Shown: in pieces, positions 37,294 to 55,028 of the stretch
Layout of the letters: each line of letters opens with the position of its first letter
Position numbering within the stretch: position 1 is the stretch's first letter
Assembly (NCBI GenBank): GCA_919901855.1
Contig: CAKKQC010000032.1
Coordinates: forward strand, 10,588 to 74,587
Source of the DNA: a bacterium
GTDB lineage: Bacteria; Oederibacteriota; CAKKQC01
Direction: 5' to 3'
DNA: 64,000 bases
Notes under the pieces: generated by a model
Seen by the model: the letters and a program-made list of their open reading frames with translations, nothing else
The model's database searches: none
What the model was told of the DNA's origin: nothing
Translations under genes and position numbers: made by a program

Positions 37294-38033
37294 ACAGCCG
37301 CATGACTCTGCTCGTCTCCGCGATCGCGGGCGTGCTGGCCGCGGTCTTCGCGTACGCCTGGTTCTCTTCGGCCGAGCGGTCGTTGCGCGAGATGTCGTCG
37401 CCCGCCCCGGTCCTGGTCGCCTCCCGGTACATCGCCAGCGGCGCCCGCGTGGACGCGTCCGCGGTCGAGGTGAAGGCCTTCCCGCGGGCGTTCATCCAGC
37501 CCGGAGCGCTGGCGGCCGTGAAGGACGCCGAAGGCCAGCTCGCGCTGGCGCCGATCGCGGCGAGAGAACAACTCCTGGCGAACAAGCTCACGAAGGGCGG
37601 CGTCGCCCTCGCCCTCGCCGTGCCGCCCGGCAGGCGCGCGGTTACGGTGGCCGTGGATGCCGCGTCCGGGGTCGCGGGCCTGCTCAAGCCGGGCGACCTC
37701 GTGGACGTGGTGGTCACCGCCGACGAGGGCGGAGCCCCCAGGACGTCCGTCCTCATGCAGGCGGCGCCCGTCCTCGCGGTCGGGAAGACGTTCTCGGTCG
37801 AGCCGTCGCGGAAGGAGGAGGAGGGGTCGCTCCTCGGCGCGCAAGCGGACACGGTGACGCTCGCGGCCTCGCCGTTCGAAGCGACCCAGCTGGTGCATTT
37901 CGAGCTCGCGGGGCGCATCAAGCTGCTACTGCGCTCTCCGGGCGACGTCCAGCGGATTCCGCTGGCGCCCATATCGGGCCGGTCGGTCCGGGCCGCCCCG
38001 GCGGGAGACGACGAGGAGGTGAGGAAGCGATGA
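37290..38033 (+). CDS. cpaB: Flp pilus assembly protein CpaB (RcpC)
   Basis: CpaB (247 aa) is a periplasmic, membrane-anchored partner of the Tad secretin. It starts with one membrane helix (LLVSAIAGVLAAVFAYAWF) and then a SAF domain (VLVASRYIASGARVDASAVEVKAFP). RcpC-type beta modules follow (AVTVAVDAASGVAGLLKPGDLVDVVVT), including the strongly conserved GLLKPGDLVDV motif, and a domain with DTVTLAASPFEATQLVHFEL. A GGAGG ribosome site precedes the ATG. The length is typical and the gene is intact. It overlaps the truncated cpaC by ATGA. Confidence 0.9.
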   Translation: MNSRMTLLVSAIAGVLAAVFAYAWFSSAERSLREMSSPAPVLVASRYIASGARVDASAVEVKAFPRAFIQPGALAAVKDAEGQLALAPIAAREQLLANKLTKGGVALALAVPPGRRAVTVAVDAASGVAGLLKPGDLVDVVVTADEGGAPRTSVLMQAAPVLAVGKTFSVEPSRKEEEGSLLGAQADTVTLAASPFEATQLVHFELAGRIKLLLRSPGDVQRIPLAPISGRSVRAAPAGDDEEVRKR

Positions 38034-38482
38034 GCATGTTCACGGTCGGACTCGCGGTGGTGTTGGCGGCGCTCCGGGGGCTTCCGGCCGCCGCGGAATC
38101 GCCGCCCGGCGGCGACCTGATCCAGGTGGATGTCCAGGTCCTGGAGATCAACAAGTCGAAACTCTACAAGGTCGGGCTCGACTGGGCGCGCCTGCTCGAG
38201 GGCGGGGCGGCGGGGGCCGCGTCCGCGGCCGCGGGAGGTCCGGTGAGTCCCGCCGAACTGGTCGAGGACGCTCCGCCGCCGCTCCGCAAGCTGGGGACGT
38301 TCTCGCGCGGGCAGGTCGACGCGTTCATGCGCCTGCTCGAGGGTAACAACTACGGGAGGCTGCTCGCCAAGCCCAAGCTGCTGACTGTGAGCGGCTCGCC
38401 CGCGACCTTCCTCGTCGGCGGCGAGATTCCCGTCGTCTCGCAGGACACGCAGGGCCATGGATGCGTGTCCTATCTGTCATGA
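38030..38482 (+). pseudogene. cpaC: Truncated Tad/Flp secretin cpaC, cut by the island
   Basis: The first ~140 residues are a normal secretin N-terminal part. They comprise a signal peptide, IQVDVQVLEINKSKLYKVGL (the conserved strand before the secretin core), then LLAKPKLLTVSGSPATFLVGGEIPVVSQD, which in intact homologues leads into the beta-barrel. After QDTQG the frame runs into island sequence and stops at 38482 after ten foreign codons. The whole membrane-spanning domain is missing, so no working pore can be made from this copy. The missing 3' part is expected beyond the right edge at the other end of the island. The downstream tad genes are not in the window. Confidence 0.85.
38443..38470. 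other. Putative attL of the serine recombinase
   Basis: GGACACGCA-N10-TGCGTGTCC is a perfect 9-bp inverted repeat around a centre between 38456 and 38457. The left arm is in the conserved secretin reading frame and the right arm in foreign sequence, 22 bp from the recombinase stop. This is the layout expected of a hybrid att site. Confidence 0.6.
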
Positions 38483-38491
38483 TCTTTCTCC

Positions 38492-39943
38492 TTATGTGAC
38501 AGTCTTCCCTGGCAGGTAGTTCAACTCAAACGTGATTCCGTCCTTCTCAACAACTATCTGTTCAACGATGGCCTCTGCAATCTGTCGCTTTTCCTCCGAG
38601 GTCAGTTCCGGCCACCGACCATAGAGGTCCCGGGCTTCGTTGAGAATCTGGTCGCTGGACTGGAACCTGACACGGAGAAAGTCAATCTCACCTTGCAGAC
38701 TGGGCATTTCGTTCCTGATCTGCCGATACCGCTCATCCATCGGCTTGTACCTTTCCCCGAATCCTTCCTTTGGGAGCTGCCCATCCATGTAGAGGCTGAC
38801 CAACTTGTCCATACCAGCCTTAACCTTTGCGCTCTCACTCTCAAGGTTATCCAGCAGCTCTTCCTTCTCTTTCAGTTGCTGGTCGGCCTGGGTCAGATGC
38901 TCAGCGACTTCCTCCTTGCAGAGAACGAAATCCCGTATCTTGGTGTGAAAGACACTATCCAAGTCTTGAATGGTGATCTTGTTCCGACAACCAGACCGGA
39001 AGCAGACATACTTCGGTGTGTTCGAAGGAACATACATCTTGCTTCCGCAATGGCACACTACCAGCCCAGTGAATACATGCACAGGCTTCCGGCCAGGCCT
39101 TCTACCGCTCTCTCGTCGCCCACTCAGAAGCGCGTTGCACTGGCTCCAAACATCGACGCTGACAATCGGATCCACTTCCGTCAGAATCCATTCCTCGGGG
39201 GGCTTGTCTTCCCAGCCATCAGGCTTGGAGTAGTTGGCGCGGCGGAGTCCTTTCGCCGAAGGATCCTTGATAAGCCGCTCAACCGTGGTCGAGCTCCAGG
39301 CGGCTCGGTTCCTCGTGCGGTGCCCTTGCTCATTGAGCAGTCTGGCAACGGTCTTGAGACGACCGTGCTGCAGGAAGAGCTCGTAGATGAGTCTTCGAAC
39401 CGGAGCTTCTGCAGGATTGACTACTAGCTTCTTGTCCTTCCACATGTACCCATAGGGCCCCTTGCCACCAAGGGGTTTTCCCATCTTGGCCCTGACCACA
39501 ACGGAAGCTGCGACCCGTGAAGCGATCTCTTCCCGTTCCCATTGAGCCAGGGCCGCAATCATGGTGTAGAAGAGGCGTCCGGCAGGCGTCGATGTGTCGA
39601 TGGATTCCTGAAGAGAGACGAGATCGGCACCGTACTTCTTGAAGAGGTCCGCGAAATCAAGGAGTTCCCGAGTGTTTCGAGCAAGGCGAGCGAGTTTGGA
39701 GAAGATCAGTCCGGTGATGTGGCCACGTTCAATATCCTTGATCATCCGCTGAGCTTCCGGATGCGCCATCACGGACTTCCCACTCACGGCCTCAAGGTGA
39801 TAGACCTCTTGCACCTTCCACTGCTTGAACTCCGCATAGTACCGAGCTCGTTTCTCGTGGTGCTCGGGACTATCCCCTCGGGCCTGGTCTTCGGTAGAGA
39901 CCCGAATCCAGATGCCTACTGCCTTCGGAACCTCTGTACCAAT
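38492..39943 (-). CDS. Large serine recombinase, apparent ATT start
   Basis: The 483-aa protein integrates or excises DNA by serine catalysis. The resolvase domain begins VGIWIRVSTEDQARG with the nucleophile Ser16, and continues with LARNTRELLDFA and REEIASRVA. The Recombinase domain contains KPLGGKGPYGYMW and NRAAWSSTTVERLIKDP. A zinc ribbon (CHCGSKM, then CFRSGC) and a coiled coil (about 320-420) follow. The frame has no ATG, GTG or TTG before the catalytic motif: upstream are a TGA and then AAGGAG, 7 nt, ATT at 39943. Starting at the first in-frame GTG (39814) would remove the active site. ATT initiation is therefore the simplest reading; a sequencing frameshift is the alternative. Confidence 0.88.
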   Translation of the reverse strand: MGTEVPKAVGIWIRVSTEDQARGDSPEHHEKRARYYAEFKQWKVQEVYHLEAVSGKSVMAHPEAQRMIKDIERGHITGLIFSKLARLARNTRELLDFADLFKKYGADLVSLQESIDTSTPAGRLFYTMIAALAQWEREEIASRVAASVVVRAKMGKPLGGKGPYGYMWKDKKLVVNPAEAPVRRLIYELFLQHGRLKTVARLLNEQGHRTRNRAAWSSTTVERLIKDPSAKGLRRANYSKPDGWEDKPPEEWILTEVDPIVSVDVWSQCNALLSGRRESGRRPGRKPVHVFTGLVVCHCGSKMYVPSNTPKYVCFRSGCRNKITIQDLDSVFHTKIRDFVLCKEEVAEHLTQADQQLKEKEELLDNLESESAKVKAGMDKLVSLYMDGQLPKEGFGERYKPMDERYRQIRNEMPSLQGEIDFLRVRFQSSDQILNEARDLYGRWPELTSEEKRQIAEAIVEQIVVEKDGITFELNYLPGKTVT

Positions 39944-43356: not shown

Positions 43357-44625
43357 ATGGCCAATGATATACATGCGTATGATCACCAACTGGAAATGCT
43401 GGTGAGTCGAATCAAGACTTCTGAGCTGTCCGAGGAGAACAAGAAACTGCTCCTCGACTATGACCGATCGATGCTCCTTGTGGAAGGGCTCGGAAAGCCG
43501 AGGCGTCTCCGTCTCTTGAGCCTCATCTTCCTGACAACGACGACCTACTTCCGAAAAGAGCTTCGGACCGTAACTGTTGACGACATCAAGGACTGCCTGA
43601 GAGCCATCGAGGATCGAAAGGTCTCTCCATGGACAGTCTCGCTCTACAAGGTTTCCATCAAGAAGTTCTTCAGGTGGCTCACCTATGGAGACATGGTCAG
43701 CCAAACCACAGAGGTTCCTCCGCTCGTCAGCTGGATCAAGATTCATGTCAAGAAGAAGAACCAGCCGAGAGTGCAAGCCTCAGCAATCCTTACCGAGGAC
43801 GAGGTCCACAGGCTCATCGCTGCTGCCCAGCTTCCTCGTGACCGCGCCTTCGTCTCGATGCTGTATGAACTGGGAGCGAGAATCGGAGAGATAGGTGGCC
43901 TTAGGATAGGGGACATCTCGCGGGACGACTACACGTTTCTCATCGACATATCAGGAAAGACAGGACACCGCACTCCCCGTATCGTCATGTCAGATCCCTA
44001 TCTTGCAGAGTGGCTGAACCATCACCCTCTCAAGAATGACCCATCAGCCCCCCTCTGGCCTTGCGTGGATCGCAGGGGCGGGTTCAAGCCCATGGACTAT
44101 GGCGCGTTCCATGCCCTCGTCTTGCGTCTCAAGCAGAAAGCCGACATCACGAAGCGCCTCTATCCCCATCTCTTTAGGCACACCAGAGTCACTCATGTCC
44201 TGGCGAAGCGCCTCATGAACGAGGCCCAGGCCAAGGTCTATTTCGGATGGACCCCTGACAGCAAGATGCTATCGGACTACGCGCATCTTGTTTCCCAGGA
44301 TGTCAACGAGGCGATCCTCGAGATGCATGGCATCAAGATGGCGAAGAACAGCGAGAAGGAGATCGCAAGAACTTGCCCTCGGTGCCACCGCATAAACACT
44401 CCCGAAGCGAAGTTCTGCGTCCAGTGCAGTTTCATTCTTGATCCGACCGTAGCGTTTCAGCAGGGCCTACAGCGTTCGAGAACCGACCAGCTCCTCACGA
44501 CGCTTCTTGAGGACAAACGCATCCAGCAGCTCGTATTGGAGAAGCTCATGGAGCTGGACCGAGCCAAACTCCAGGAACTCCTCGGAGATGCCAAGGGGGA
44601 CACAAGTGGGCTACAAGGGATATAA
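43357..44625 (+). CDS. Tyrosine recombinase/integrase with C-terminal zinc ribbon
   Basis: The 422-aa protein has an N-terminal SAM-like DNA-binding domain (about 25-125) and a catalytic domain. The conserved residues are R175 (GARIGEIGGLRIGDI), K201 (SGKTGHRT), H271-R274-H275 (HLFRHTRVTH), W298 and the nucleophile Y308 (LSDYAHL). A four-Cys zinc ribbon follows (C340, C343, C354, C357: CPRCHRINTP, AKFCVQC), then a helical tail. This arrangement is typical of integrases of archaeal plasmids and proviruses, although bacterial examples exist. A GGAG ribosome site and a TATA-like box precede the ATG. It heads a plus-strand trio with the next two genes. Confidence 0.9.
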   Translation: MANDIHAYDHQLEMLVSRIKTSELSEENKKLLLDYDRSMLLVEGLGKPRRLRLLSLIFLTTTTYFRKELRTVTVDDIKDCLRAIEDRKVSPWTVSLYKVSIKKFFRWLTYGDMVSQTTEVPPLVSWIKIHVKKKNQPRVQASAILTEDEVHRLIAAAQLPRDRAFVSMLYELGARIGEIGGLRIGDISRDDYTFLIDISGKTGHRTPRIVMSDPYLAEWLNHHPLKNDPSAPLWPCVDRRGGFKPMDYGAFHALVLRLKQKADITKRLYPHLFRHTRVTHVLAKRLMNEAQAKVYFGWTPDSKMLSDYAHLVSQDVNEAILEMHGIKMAKNSEKEIARTCPRCHRINTPEAKFCVQCSFILDPTVAFQQGLQRSRTDQLLTTLLEDKRIQQLVLEKLMELDRAKLQELLGDAKGDTSGLQGI

Positions 44626-46880: not shown

Positions 46881-49046
46881 CTAACTCAGTTGCTTGACGT
46901 CCCGGTACAGCTTCCGCAGGTGTTCATCAGACATGTCTAGAATCGGCTCGTACATGAAGGCGTTCAAGTGAATGTTCTCCGGCGTCATCAGCATTACCCG
47001 CTCTATCACGTCGATGGCTTCCTGTTTGGAGGCGGTCCTTTCCCTGAACAACTTGAACAACTCGTATGTCTGCTTGCTTGAAATAGCCTCGACTGCCGCA
47101 GGATCCGCGATCTTGCCGATCATGTATCTCTCCGCCGTCAGCCTGATGGCGATCGACAGAACGACCTTGTTCTCTAGATTCGGGGTATCGGCAGCCTGCA
47201 AGCAGGCATCGGCTTCACCGAAGATTACTTCGACCATCGGCTTTGTGCCATCGAGACAACTGCCGGCTTGGCCGAACACCGTCCGAAAAACATTCGCCAA
47301 GTCATCCTGTGTTATCGTTCCGGAGTCCCCCTTCCAGTGCAAGAGCGATGTCAGCTTCTTGTACTCGGGGTCGTTCTCGCCCTTTGTGTACTCCACGATG
47401 TTCCGAATGAACGGAATCGACGCCACTCTCTTTCTCGCATCAGTGAAGAAGTGCGGCTTCCAACCCTCAACGAAGATGTTCCGTATGCCCTCGGCTCTGT
47501 TAATGCTGAGTCCACTATCCGTCTTTGACGCCATCAAGCACTGCGAGTACTTAACGAACCGGCTTTGGATGGTTCGGAAGAAGTCGAAGTTGTGTGTGAG
47601 AATCACCTGGTAGAAGTGCGGGTCTTCAGCCATTTCCTTGAGATACTCCACAATGGCGTACTTGTTCTTGTAGTCGAAAGAATCCGCGATGTCATCAACA
47701 ATGAACAGCGTTTCCTGGTTCGCCTGTCTTCTTGCCTCGACCTCGAAGATGATGTTCAGAATATAGAGAGCCTTCTTCTCGCCCGTGCTCAGCACCCGCA
47801 TGAGCTCGTCCCTCTCAAGCGTGGCGGATTCTGACCCATCTTCAAACCTGAACCCCAAGCTGAGAAGGGGCTCCTGCGCCAGGATCACAGCTACACGATT
47901 CTGCGGAACGAGCCTGAACGGAACATGGAATCGGCCATTGAACAGCTCAATGACTCTCTCCCACTGTGTCCGTTCCTTTGCCGCCTCGGCTTCGATTTCC
48001 ACCTTCCGCTTCTCGGCCGCGTGTAACTTCGCGACGAGGTCGTTGTACAAATCAATCTTCAGGAAGAAATAGGACCTCCAGAGTTCCTCTCGAAACGCCT
48101 CGACATTGGCAAGGGCAGGGATTATCTTCTCGTTCTCAGACAGATAGTTGCTGAAATCACGAACGGTCGCATTCTTGGTGATCTGCTTGTCAATCGCCGC
48201 AAATCTCTTCCTCAACTCTGCGCTCTTGAGAATCTGGTTCTTCTCGTCCTCAATCACTTTCTCCAGCTCAACCTGGCTTGAGATCTCCTTCTTAGTCGGG
48301 GCATTCAGTGTCACGGAATGCTTCGCTTCAAAGAAGCCGTTGTCGGCGAGCTGTTTGGCAATAGTGGCCGCGTTGTAGAAGTTGAAGACACCCTTCTTGA
48401 AGTATGTGGATGCGGCGAGAAGTTCGTTGTATTTCTCGATGTATTCCTTTATGGCCGTCCTAACGTCGCCGGTCTTAAGGAAGGCCTGGATCCTGTCATC
48501 GAAGATCTCGTCATATCCGATGCCCGAGTAGGGCGCAGACTTCTGATCTCTCATCTCCTTCTCAACCCTGAAGATGGCTTTGTCGAATTCCCTATCGCTT
48601 TTGGTGAAGGCTGAAGATATCTCCTTCTCGATGTCCCTCTTCGAACCAGACACTTCCTTCATGGCGTTCAGGAAAACCTTCTTGGCTGCTTCGATTCCTG
48701 CGTGCAACTCTTCGTATTCTTTTCTCAATGGGGCGTTCACAAGCAGAGTCGACGTCTTCTCCGTGTGACCGAGCACCTCGTCATAAGGTCTGACAACGAA
48801 GACCCGCTCCTTGGGGAGCTCAGTTCCGGATTCGTCAGTAATCACTCTGGTGCAGGTTCGTCCTGGAAAGACTCGATCTTTCGACGGCACCGCTTGCGTC
48901 AGGTCAAAGAAGGTGTTTGCCAGCGAGCTCTTCATCGAACCGTTCGCGGCGTAGATCGCAACGACGTTGTGAGTGGAGAAGTCGAACTCGTATTTCAGTT
49001 TCCTGATGCCGTAGCAGTTCTGCAGATCAATCTTCAAGGTCTTCAT
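46881..49046 (-). CDS. SMC/RloC-like AAA (ABC-type) ATPase, candidate defence protein
   Basis: The 721-aa protein has a Walker A region IYAANGSMKSSLANTFF at residues 31-47, a long helical, coiled-coil insert (about 110-370) and the ABC signature VLSTGEKKALYIL near 418. Walker B is TLFIVDDIADSFD near 448 (DD rather than DE), followed by the H-loop ILTHNFDFF. The C-terminal 200 residues are an alpha-helical domain with KLTSLLHWKGDSG. This is the AAA_13 type seen in RloC, PrrC and other phage-responsive ATPases, but no anticodon-nuclease motif is evident. It is preceded by a minus-strand cassette of small genes. TTTAATAA lies 45 nt before the ATG. Confidence 0.75.
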   Translation of the reverse strand: MKTLKIDLQNCYGIRKLKYEFDFSTHNVVAIYAANGSMKSSLANTFFDLTQAVPSKDRVFPGRTCTRVITDESGTELPKERVFVVRPYDEVLGHTEKTSTLLVNAPLRKEYEELHAGIEAAKKVFLNAMKEVSGSKRDIEKEISSAFTKSDREFDKAIFRVEKEMRDQKSAPYSGIGYDEIFDDRIQAFLKTGDVRTAIKEYIEKYNELLAASTYFKKGVFNFYNAATIAKQLADNGFFEAKHSVTLNAPTKKEISSQVELEKVIEDEKNQILKSAELRKRFAAIDKQITKNATVRDFSNYLSENEKIIPALANVEAFREELWRSYFFLKIDLYNDLVAKLHAAEKRKVEIEAEAAKERTQWERVIELFNGRFHVPFRLVPQNRVAVILAQEPLLSLGFRFEDGSESATLERDELMRVLSTGEKKALYILNIIFEVEARRQANQETLFIVDDIADSFDYKNKYAIVEYLKEMAEDPHFYQVILTHNFDFFRTIQSRFVKYSQCLMASKTDSGLSINRAEGIRNIFVEGWKPHFFTDARKRVASIPFIRNIVEYTKGENDPEYKKLTSLLHWKGDSGTITQDDLANVFRTVFGQAGSCLDGTKPMVEVIFGEADACLQAADTPNLENKVVLSIAIRLTAERYMIGKIADPAAVEAISSKQTYELFKLFRERTASKQEAIDVIERVMLMTPENIHLNAFMYEPILDMSDEHLRKLYRDVKQLS

Positions 49047-51788: not shown

Positions 51789-53201
51789 ATGCAGACGACG
51801 AGAAAGATCGCGTTCCTGGGACCTCAGGGAAGTTTCTCTCATGAGGCAGCGATCAGCGCATTTCCTCAGGACGGATTGCACATGAAAGATTCGCTCGAGG
51901 AGGTCTTCGATACTGTTTACAACGGCAAAGCGGATTATGGCGTTATGCCTGTTGAGAACTCGGCCGAGGGGATCATCGGCGTCACATACCACCTTCTGGT
52001 AGGCCAAGGCGAGCGTCCCGAAGTCAAGATCTGTGGTGAACTCTATCATCCAGTCGTACTGAACCTCGCCACAATTGCCGAAACGAGCCTTGACAAGATT
52101 GCGTTCGTCCATACCAAGCAAGAACCGTGGGGACAGTGTCGGGATTGGGTCTCGAGGAATCTCCCGCGGAACGTTCAGTTCATCGCTGAAGCTTCAACAT
52201 CGAAGGCTGCGGAGCTAGTGAAGGAGAAGGGCGAGTTGACCAGGGCAGCAATCGTCAGCCCTCTTGCGGTGAAGCTATATGGCTTGCACCTGCTCGCCAA
52301 GGGGATACAAGATGTCAGAGGGAATGCCACTCGTTTCCTCATCATCGGGAGAAAACTGCTTCGTAGGAGAAGGGCAATTCACAAAGTGACCTTTGGCATG
52401 GTCCTCATGGACAGAGTGGGCGCCATAACCGACGCATTCGGAATCTTGAAAGCCCAGCGCGCGAATGTGCGCGCGGTTAAGATCTTTCCGGTCCGGGCGC
52501 CGAGCATTGCAACTTGGAAGGACTGGTTCTTCGTTGATATTGACTCGGCGCCTGACTTCACGGCAGTTAACATTGCGATGAGCAAGATGCGTGAAGAAAA
52601 GGATCTGATTCTCGTGCTCCGCGAATTAGGAAGGTATCCCAAGGCAGCAAGTGATGGAGATGCCATTCCTGAAAGATCGTCCCCTCCCAGTCTTCCTGAG
52701 GTGGGCGTAGATGGAGGATTAGCGATCGAGGACCTAGTCGCGGCCGGTGAGGGAAACTCTATTGAATTCAAGGCAACGCTTCGTTGGAATCGAAGAGAGA
52801 ACAAGAAGGATGCGGAACTGGAGTTCTCAGTCGTCAAGACTATCGCTGGTTTCATGAATGCGAGAGGAGGTGTTCTGCTCATCGGTATTGACGACAAAGG
52901 GGCCCCTCTGGGCCTCGACGAAGATGTTAAGACATTGCACAAACAATCTAAGGACGGATTCGAGCTTCACGTGAGAGACCTGCTCCATTCGAGATTCGGT
53001 GGGGCAGTCAGTCATCTCATCAATGTGAGATTCGAAAAGGTCCAAGACAAAGATGTGTGCTTGATCAAGGTCAACCCCAGTCCCATTCCGGCCTGGGTCG
53101 AACGAGAAGGAAGGAATGAATTCTTTGTTCGAAGCGGCAATCAGACGAGGCTCCTCGATAGCAAGGACGCAGCAGAGTACGTAAGGTTCAGATGGGGCTA
53201 G
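51789..53201 (+). CDS. Prephenate dehydratase-ACT fused to Schlafen/AlbA_2 domain
   Basis: This 470-aa protein has three domains. Residues 5-190 are a full prephenate dehydratase: KIAFLGPQGSFSHEAA, the MPVENSAEGIIG loop (54-58 PVENS) and the catalytic TRF motif at 181-183 (NATRFLIIG). Residues 198-284 are an ACT domain, but the Phe-binding ESRP motif is replaced by KIFPVRAP. After a Ser/Pro linker, residues 313-465 are an AlbA_2/Schlafen-like domain (NSIEFKATLRW, GFMNARGGVLLIGIDDKG, EFFVRSGNQTRLL). PDT normally makes phenylpyruvate for Phe synthesis; Schlafen-type domains bind nucleic acid or nucleotides and occur in phage defence and regulation. The fusion is very unusual. No aromatic-pathway gene is nearby. 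The ribosome site is weak. Confidence 0.85.
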   Translation: MQTTRKIAFLGPQGSFSHEAAISAFPQDGLHMKDSLEEVFDTVYNGKADYGVMPVENSAEGIIGVTYHLLVGQGERPEVKICGELYHPVVLNLATIAETSLDKIAFVHTKQEPWGQCRDWVSRNLPRNVQFIAEASTSKAAELVKEKGELTRAAIVSPLAVKLYGLHLLAKGIQDVRGNATRFLIIGRKLLRRRRAIHKVTFGMVLMDRVGAITDAFGILKAQRANVRAVKIFPVRAPSIATWKDWFFVDIDSAPDFTAVNIAMSKMREEKDLILVLRELGRYPKAASDGDAIPERSSPPSLPEVGVDGGLAIEDLVAAGEGNSIEFKATLRWNRRENKKDAELEFSVVKTIAGFMNARGGVLLIGIDDKGAPLGLDEDVKTLHKQSKDGFELHVRDLLHSRFGGAVSHLINVRFEKVQDKDVCLIKVNPSPIPAWVEREGRNEFFVRSGNQTRLLDSKDAAEYVRFRWG

Positions 53202-54104: not shown

Positions 54105-54176
54105 AAGGACCCGAATTACTGCATTGCTGTGCCGCGGCCGTACTCTCCTCTGATAGTATGCCTACATGGTCCAACC

Positions 54177-55028
54177 ATGGGCGATCCAGATCACCTAGCG
54201 AAGATCCTGCAGGGCGTGCCAGCTTGGAATGAATGGCGTGAGGCCAATCCTGACATCCAACCTAACCTGACTCGCGCCGATCTGTCGGGAAGGGACTTGA
54301 CTGGAGTGGATTTTCGTGGCGCAGGCCTCTTCAAGGCCAATCTTCACGGGGCAATTCTGGTTGGAGCCAACCTTCGCCAGGCCCGATTAGTATCAACTGA
54401 ACTCGACGCCGCCGATTTATCAGGGGCAAGCGTGTATGGTGCTTCTGTTTGGGACGTGAGCCTCGCTGGTGCGATTCAGCGCGATCTCATCATCACCCGC
54501 CCAGGCCAATCTCGCCTCACTGTCGATGACCTCGAGGTCGCTCAGTTCATTTATCTACTTCTGGACAACAGGAGGTTCCGGCGTGTGATCGACACACTGA
54601 CCTCAAAGGTGGTTCTGATCCTTGGTCGCTTCTCTCCAGGTCGCAAGGGTATTCTTGAGGTCTTGAAGGCAGAGCTGAGACAGCGTGAGTTGCTTCCTGT
54701 ACTCTTTGATTTCCAGGGGCCAGATTCACGAGACATGATCGAGACTGTCACCGCAGTTGCACATCTGGCTAGATTCGTTTTAGCCGACCTCACAGACCCG
54801 GCTTGTGTCGGCGACGAACTGCAGGCCTTTGTCCCCAACGTCGAGGTGCCTGTCGCCACAATAATATCGGATGGATCAACACCATATGCGACCTTCTCAT
54901 CATTAACCAAACACTCATGGCTGATGCGACCAGAAACTTATCGAGATGAAGACGATCTCCTTCGGCGTGTACTACCGCTTCTTCTCCGGAAGGCTGAAGA
55001 ATGCAGAAAGAACCGTCATCCCCGGTGA
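54177..55028 (+). CDS. Pentapeptide-repeat protein with C-terminal Rossmann-like (TIR-like?) domain
   Basis: The 283-aa protein starts MGDPDHLAKILQGVPAWNEW, a common opening for this family; an earlier ATG at 54129 is unlikely. About residues 28-105 are pentapeptide repeats of the A(D/N)LxX type (LTRADLSGRDLTGVDFRGAG), a right-handed beta-helix. The C-terminal domain (about 140-270) has SKVVLILGRFSP, ELLPVLFDF, ARFVLADLTDP and VEVPVATIISD. This is a Rossmann-like alternating pattern that recalls TIR-like or nucleoside-processing domains used in immune sensing. No catalytic Glu can be named with confidence. It stands alone between two small genes. Confidence 0.6.
   Translation: MGDPDHLAKILQGVPAWNEWREANPDIQPNLTRADLSGRDLTGVDFRGAGLFKANLHGAILVGANLRQARLVSTELDAADLSGASVYGASVWDVSLAGAIQRDLIITRPGQSRLTVDDLEVAQFIYLLLDNRRFRRVIDTLTSKVVLILGRFSPGRKGILEVLKAELRQRELLPVLFDFQGPDSRDMIETVTAVAHLARFVLADLTDPACVGDELQAFVPNVEVPVATIISDGSTPYATFSSLTKHSWLMRPETYRDEDDLLRRVLPLLLRKAEECRKNRHPR

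Follow-up and report, generated by a model that had tools for sequence, protein, structure and literature searches.

Prephenate dehydratases (PheA/PDT) combine a PF00800 catalytic domain with an ACT domain, and in one of them, GqqA, the catalytic domain is of the PBP type and the protein dimerises via ACT (PMC8192741). AlbA_2-type domains are known from a separate group of proteins: SAMD9 cuts tRNA-Phe using such a domain (PMC12698002), the effect of SAMD9L requires the equivalent active-site acids (PMC11221667), and, according to a literature survey, BREX has Schlafen RNases as backup effectors (PMC12839542). Here we analyse a bacterial gene that joins a PDT-ACT unit to an AlbA_2/Schlafen domain. 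It resembles PheA/PDT in having a full PDT domain, the catalytic N/Q/T/R residues and the PDT-ACT order, but it has KIFP in place of ESRP, no chorismate mutase, a C-terminal AlbA_2 domain and a score below the equivalog level. The PDT-ACT arrangement is shared with GqqA, a Komagataeibacter PDT that forms a dimer and has an additional, non-classical activity (AHL acylase), but GqqA lacks an AlbA_2 domain. With the AlbA_2 tRNase domain of SAMD9/SAMD9L and the core of SLFN11/12/13/14 the protein has in common the fold and a two-Glu-plus-Asp active site, whereas it is bacterial, has a single lobe in place of the tandem SLFN core, and is attached to other partner domains. Like bacterial Schlafen anti-phage proteins it would be a Schlafen-type RNase effector (predicted here) on mobile or defence DNA, although the BREX-associated Schlafens carry a C-terminal minimal kinase and a wHTH, and no PDT (PMC12839542).

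The sequence-only reading of the window (the whole stretch of 64,000 nucleotides that was analysed) had claimed a fusion in one frame of 470 codons, made up of an intact PDT with PVENS and TRF motifs, an ACT domain whose ESRP motif is replaced, and a full AlbA_2/Schlafen-like domain. The open reading frame, the Pfam matches and the alignments bore out each of these parts, and a structure model, one of the checks that this reading had proposed, did so for the AlbA_2 domain (Table 1). The PDT domain scored 178.1 bits against a Pfam cut-off of 25.2, and SLFN_AlbA_2 matched residues 321-456 with 64.7 bits (E=1.4e-17, gathering cut-off 25.3); two full-length domains with such E-values have a negligible chance of falling into one frame by accident. 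The genome is a draft in 91 contigs, which speaks for the possibility that two genes were joined falsely in assembly. However, base composition is even along the gene (GC is about 0.48-0.61 when taken in 90-nt steps and does not jump at 52650-52750; 0.536 in the PDT half and 0.510 in the AlbA_2 half), and the AlbA_2 part begins, after an ordinary linker, at the boundary used by related AlbA_2 fusions. Because of this even composition and natural domain boundary, and with a single open frame across the join, we regard an artefact as hardly credible.

Table 1. Features of the fusion gene and of the island around it (positions in the window).
Feature	Position	Strand	Basis
PDT-ACT-AlbA_2 fusion gene, 470 codons	51789..53201	+	single frame, ATG to TAG
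Prephenate dehydratase domain, residues 7-189	51807..52355	+	PF00800 E=2e-52
PVENS motif, residues 54-58	51948..51962	+	sequence; alignment with 22 PDTs
Catalytic TRF motif, residues 181-183 (E. coli T278/R279)	52329..52337	+	PDT alignment
ACT-like region, residues 198-286	52380..52646	+	weak PF01842; full-length PRK11898 match; alignment
KIFP replacing Phe-binding ESRP, residues 231-234	52479..52490	+	PDT alignment
Linker ASDGDAIPERSSPPSLPEVG, residues 287-306	52647..52706	+	sequence
AlbA_2/Schlafen domain, residues 313-470	52725..53198	+	PF04326; 66 relatives; model pLDDT ~97
E321 and E326 (E-x4-EFK), equivalents of SLFN11 E209/E214	52749..52766	+	invariant in 66/66 relatives; SLFN11 alignment
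D368/D369 (GIDD), aligned to SLFN11 GVDD with D252	52890..52895	+	D369 in 65/66 relatives; SLFN11 alignment
Chromosomal secretin gene cut off at island edge	38030..38482	+	partial PF00263; GC drop ~38.45 kb
Large serine recombinase, island left edge	38492..39814	-	PF00239 and PF07508
Tyrosine recombinase with zinc ribbon, on island	43357..44625	+	PF00589
RecF/SMC-like ATPase, PADLOC PDC-S46 defence candidate	46881..49046	-	E=4.9e-275, 912.7 bits, positions 1-718/719

The pairing was sought in several collections. No second fusion was found by tblastn in 72,556 plasmid and 50,697 phage records, which gave separate PDT or AlbA_2 matches only, and none in about 1,970 further genomes from the host's phylum and five others. 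Viral contigs held no PDT, but three AlbA_2 loci of the GmrSD type; a scan of 84,980 species genomes, which yielded 592 stretches, showed no PDT among the best 80 of 490 relatives; and a literature search returned no paper naming both halves. Four of these genome searches were run at E<=1e-41, a threshold at which a strongly diverged fusion could escape, and for none of the searches is there a known fusion to serve as positive control. The PDT-AlbA_2 pairing is thus rare or unique within the material searched, which is short of proof of uniqueness. That it is a singleton in all searches run is what would be expected if the fusion had arisen recently and by chance on a mobile island and its two halves had no joint function under selection. 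Both halves are nevertheless intact, with no stops or frameshifts, their active-site residues are kept at about 30-47% identity to the nearest relatives, and a proper linker lies at the usual AlbA_2 boundary, so that we consider a chance fusion unlikely.

Within the N-terminal half, the Pfam match to ACT was weak (residues 204-257, 16.6 bits, below the gathering cut-off of 27), but an ACT region is present, because PRK11898 (an NCBIfam prephenate dehydratase family) spans residues 5-285. The level for an isofunctional PDT was not reached (NF008865, 152.4 bits against an equivalog cut-off of 219), and the N-terminus is therefore a divergent PDT-ACT; it is about 30-38% identical overall to the nearest PDTs. 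We aligned it with 22 comparators, comprising 21 PDTs (the host's own and those of other genomes) and E. coli PheA, whose row is assumed to be correct. Positions N160, Q215, T278 and R279 of E. coli PheA are unchanged in the fusion, and S208 is a Thr, a conservative change also seen in some ordinary PDTs. The ACT motif is KIF(P), where the comparators have ESR (21/22) or QSR (1/22). To judge from these residues, the substrate pocket looks to have been retained, but not the classical Phe site. In a conservation count for relaxed constraint on ACT, made with a phylum-heavy comparison set, E. coli PheA scored similarly to the fusion. PDB entry 7alz, a PDT that we take to be GqqA, matched the fusion by sequence. 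Structure models of the PDT half were of low confidence and were left unused, and the structural comparison covers the AlbA_2 half alone.

With the catalytic residues kept, the PDT half would suit an enzyme no less than a sensor. It might then act by draining prephenate, for example by starving phage CmoA of the co-substrate from which it makes Cx-SAM, with AlbA_2 as an accessory. Many phages encode CmoA, which uses up prephenate in making Cx-SAM for DNA carboxymethylation (PMC12783734), and a retained catalytic site together with a lost Phe feedback motif is as expected for an uninhibited enzyme. However, PDT was found neither in viral contigs nor as a repeated defence partner, AlbA_2 retains an active site of its own, and the host already has a PDT, which makes a prephenate drain quite improbable. 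The link between phage CmoA and prephenate motivates a test and is no evidence on the fusion protein. CmoA did not rise above the cut-off in the host genome, so host cmo5U chemistry gives no support. The host's PDT is a canonical chorismate mutase-PDT-ACT gene on another contig (C22), beside an aminotransferase-like gene, and the fusion copy is therefore not the host's Phe enzyme.

For the C-terminal half, an AlbA_2 profile was built from 16 relatives and run against the PDB. It matched Schlafens, and the SLFN11 segments PESQSIEFK and GVDD aligned to GEGNSIEFK and GIDD of the fusion, which places the active-site acids at E321, E326 and D368/D369. For SLFN11 we presume the active-site numbering E209, E214 and D252; E209A is named in the title of a PDB entry. 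The exact position of SLFN11 D252 varies within the AlbA_2 subfamily, the first Asp being variable and the following one nearly invariant among the 66 relatives. Another entry, 9ylu ('CbCash'), was a weak match to the profile, and a literature search gave no paper on it. The modelled domain was most similar to DIP2311 (Z 14.0, 3.4 Å over 146 residues), followed by the SAMD9 tRNase domain (7ksp, Z 12.8, 3.5 Å over 155 residues; 9o0d, Z 12.4), and it matched Schlafens at Z 9-10. Both Pfam and the model show a single AlbA_2 lobe, not the two tandem lobes of the animal SLFN core.

A Schlafen-like fold need not cut. For some pAgo proteins, AlbA_2 is described as binding nucleic acid (PMC6299218), SLFN5 binds tRNA without cleavage (PMC11221667), and fusions of AlbA_2 to receivers (below) resemble signalling outputs. 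The protein might be a regulator: PDT-ACT would sense a compound of the aromatic pathway, and AlbA_2 would bind DNA or RNA but not cleave it. The acidic triad is retained, however, and its two glutamates are invariant in all 66 relatives, which is unexpected for a pure binder; we regard a non-cutting regulator as possible but unlikely.

Relatives were drawn from the plasmid records, the viral contigs and the genome collection. In nearly all of them AlbA_2 sits at the extreme C-terminal end, behind a wide choice of partners. Among 39 scanned with Pfam, 12 had GmrSD_N; others had N6_Mtase/Eco57I, HsdR or other restriction helicases, SBP_bac_3, a bacterial PH domain, STAND/NACHT (weak matches) or predicted membrane segments. 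Most members of this group are about 36-48% identical to the fusion in AlbA_2 and share with it the extreme C-terminal position, the invariant E-x4-EFK and GG..IG.(D)D, but its PDT-ACT partner was found in no other member. In particular, the restriction enzyme fusions (GmrSD, HsdR and Eco57I type) have an N-terminal restriction or methylase module where this protein has PDT-ACT. In a tree of 78 AlbA_2 domains, that of the fusion formed a long lone branch outside all partner classes. The AlbA_2 half is less unusual than the sequence-only reading had supposed, being a widespread C-terminal module that is often found on restriction enzymes; the novelty is confined to the PDT partner.

Three of these fusions, from three phyla, place a response-regulator receiver before AlbA_2 (L075:7560-8471, L109:1903-3060, L111:2119-3198), suggesting two-component control of a Schlafen-type output. 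In Algibacter, SBP_bac_3 and predicted membrane segments precede AlbA_2 (L094:362-1705), apparently a sensor of extracellular ligands attached to a Schlafen-type domain. In its logic this protein comes nearest to the fusion, since the catalytic domain of PDT is PBP-like too (PMC8192741). These receiver and solute-binding inputs point to AlbA_2 as a likely output module. Proteins of a further conserved family, about 257-270 aa long, combine 1-2 predicted membrane segments with AlbA_2 (L043-L062 and similar). This family is widespread in marine Flavobacteriaceae, and related plasmid proteins of this type are annotated merely 'ATP-binding protein'.

The sequence-only reading had also placed the gene on a mobile island, among defence-like neighbours and with no aromatic genes nearby. 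A mobile island fits the low GC and the two recombinases: at 38.45 kb, GC drops from about 0.70 to about 0.50, and it then stays at 0.52-0.59 as far as the end of the contig, where the window ends as well. The neighbours held up for one gene, the PDC-S46 candidate, a few genes upstream of the fusion, and no aromatic gene was seen among the Pfam/NCBIfam matches of the main island ORFs. The likely neighbours on each side of the fusion gene are on the opposite strand, which leaves it a stand-alone gene. A promoter scan found no sigma-70-like site, and no PADLOC model matched the fusion protein (0 families). The serine recombinase abuts the truncated secretin exactly at the GC drop, and another contig of the same genome (C79) has the C-terminal part of a secretin close to its start, with about 35 model positions missing between the pieces. 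The island thus probably interrupts a secretin or pilus operon, although the secretin pieces do not exactly abut and no right end was seen up to the contig end; no repeats of at least 30 bases marked an island end. Downstream of the fusion, a protein encoded at 54129-55028 has a pentapeptide-repeat N-terminus and a C-terminal stretch (VLADLTDP...) with no Pfam match, which on visual inspection looks like a nucleotide-binding or TIR-like fold.

We tentatively favour, at somewhat less than an even chance, a sensor-effector protein in which PDT-ACT controls a putative Schlafen RNase. It would be a stand-alone protein borne on the mobile island. PDT-ACT, with its PBP-like cleft and dimerising ACT, would bind, and possibly turn over, prephenate or a look-alike, and its ligand or dimer state would govern the C-terminal AlbA_2. 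That domain would be a Schlafen-type metal-dependent RNase, with tRNA as the likely substrate, and under phage infection or metabolic stress its action may halt translation. Dimerisation through ACT may pair two AlbA_2 lobes, like the two lobes of the animal Schlafen core. The known active-site residues retained in both halves, the structural matches to the SAMD9 tRNase domain and Schlafens, the ACT-mediated dimer of GqqA, the role of Schlafen RNases in BREX, the PDC-S46 neighbour and the two island recombinases argue for this model; against it stand the single sequence, a PDT half that would also suit an enzyme, the variable position of SLFN11 D252 and the lack of a PADLOC model match. The N-terminal part would be a variable input or targeting unit, because the same AlbA_2 subfamily follows receiver, SBP_bac_3, STAND/NACHT, GmrSD_N, HsdR and N6 methylase domains. 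The earlier suggestion that the N-terminal unit controls the Schlafen domain is strengthened in part, by the relatives in which this C-terminal AlbA_2 follows receivers, a solute-binding protein or STAND/NACHT. Several partners are themselves nucleases, so AlbA_2 might merely bind nucleic acid there.

A more specific version would be a Phe-pathway checkpoint nuclease, in which PDT-ACT reads prephenate or its depletion (e.g. by phage CmoA) and releases AlbA_2 as an anticodon nuclease, so that the state of Phe biosynthesis would lead to tRNA destruction. By its fold, the AlbA_2 domain is a relative of the tRNA-Phe-cutting domain of SAMD9, but we consider this version highly unlikely.

Taken as a whole, the fusion is probably a novel sort of putative metabolite-linked defence or stress protein. 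If the sensor-effector model is true, an enzyme of primary metabolism would have been taken over to serve as the input of a Schlafen-type effector, and the protein would be a concrete, testable example of an aromatic-pathway metabolite that triggers immunity or stress control. For the family, sensors and restriction enzymes alike are freely joined to one AlbA_2 module, and this helps to explain why many AlbA_2 proteins carry no annotation beyond 'ATP-binding protein'.
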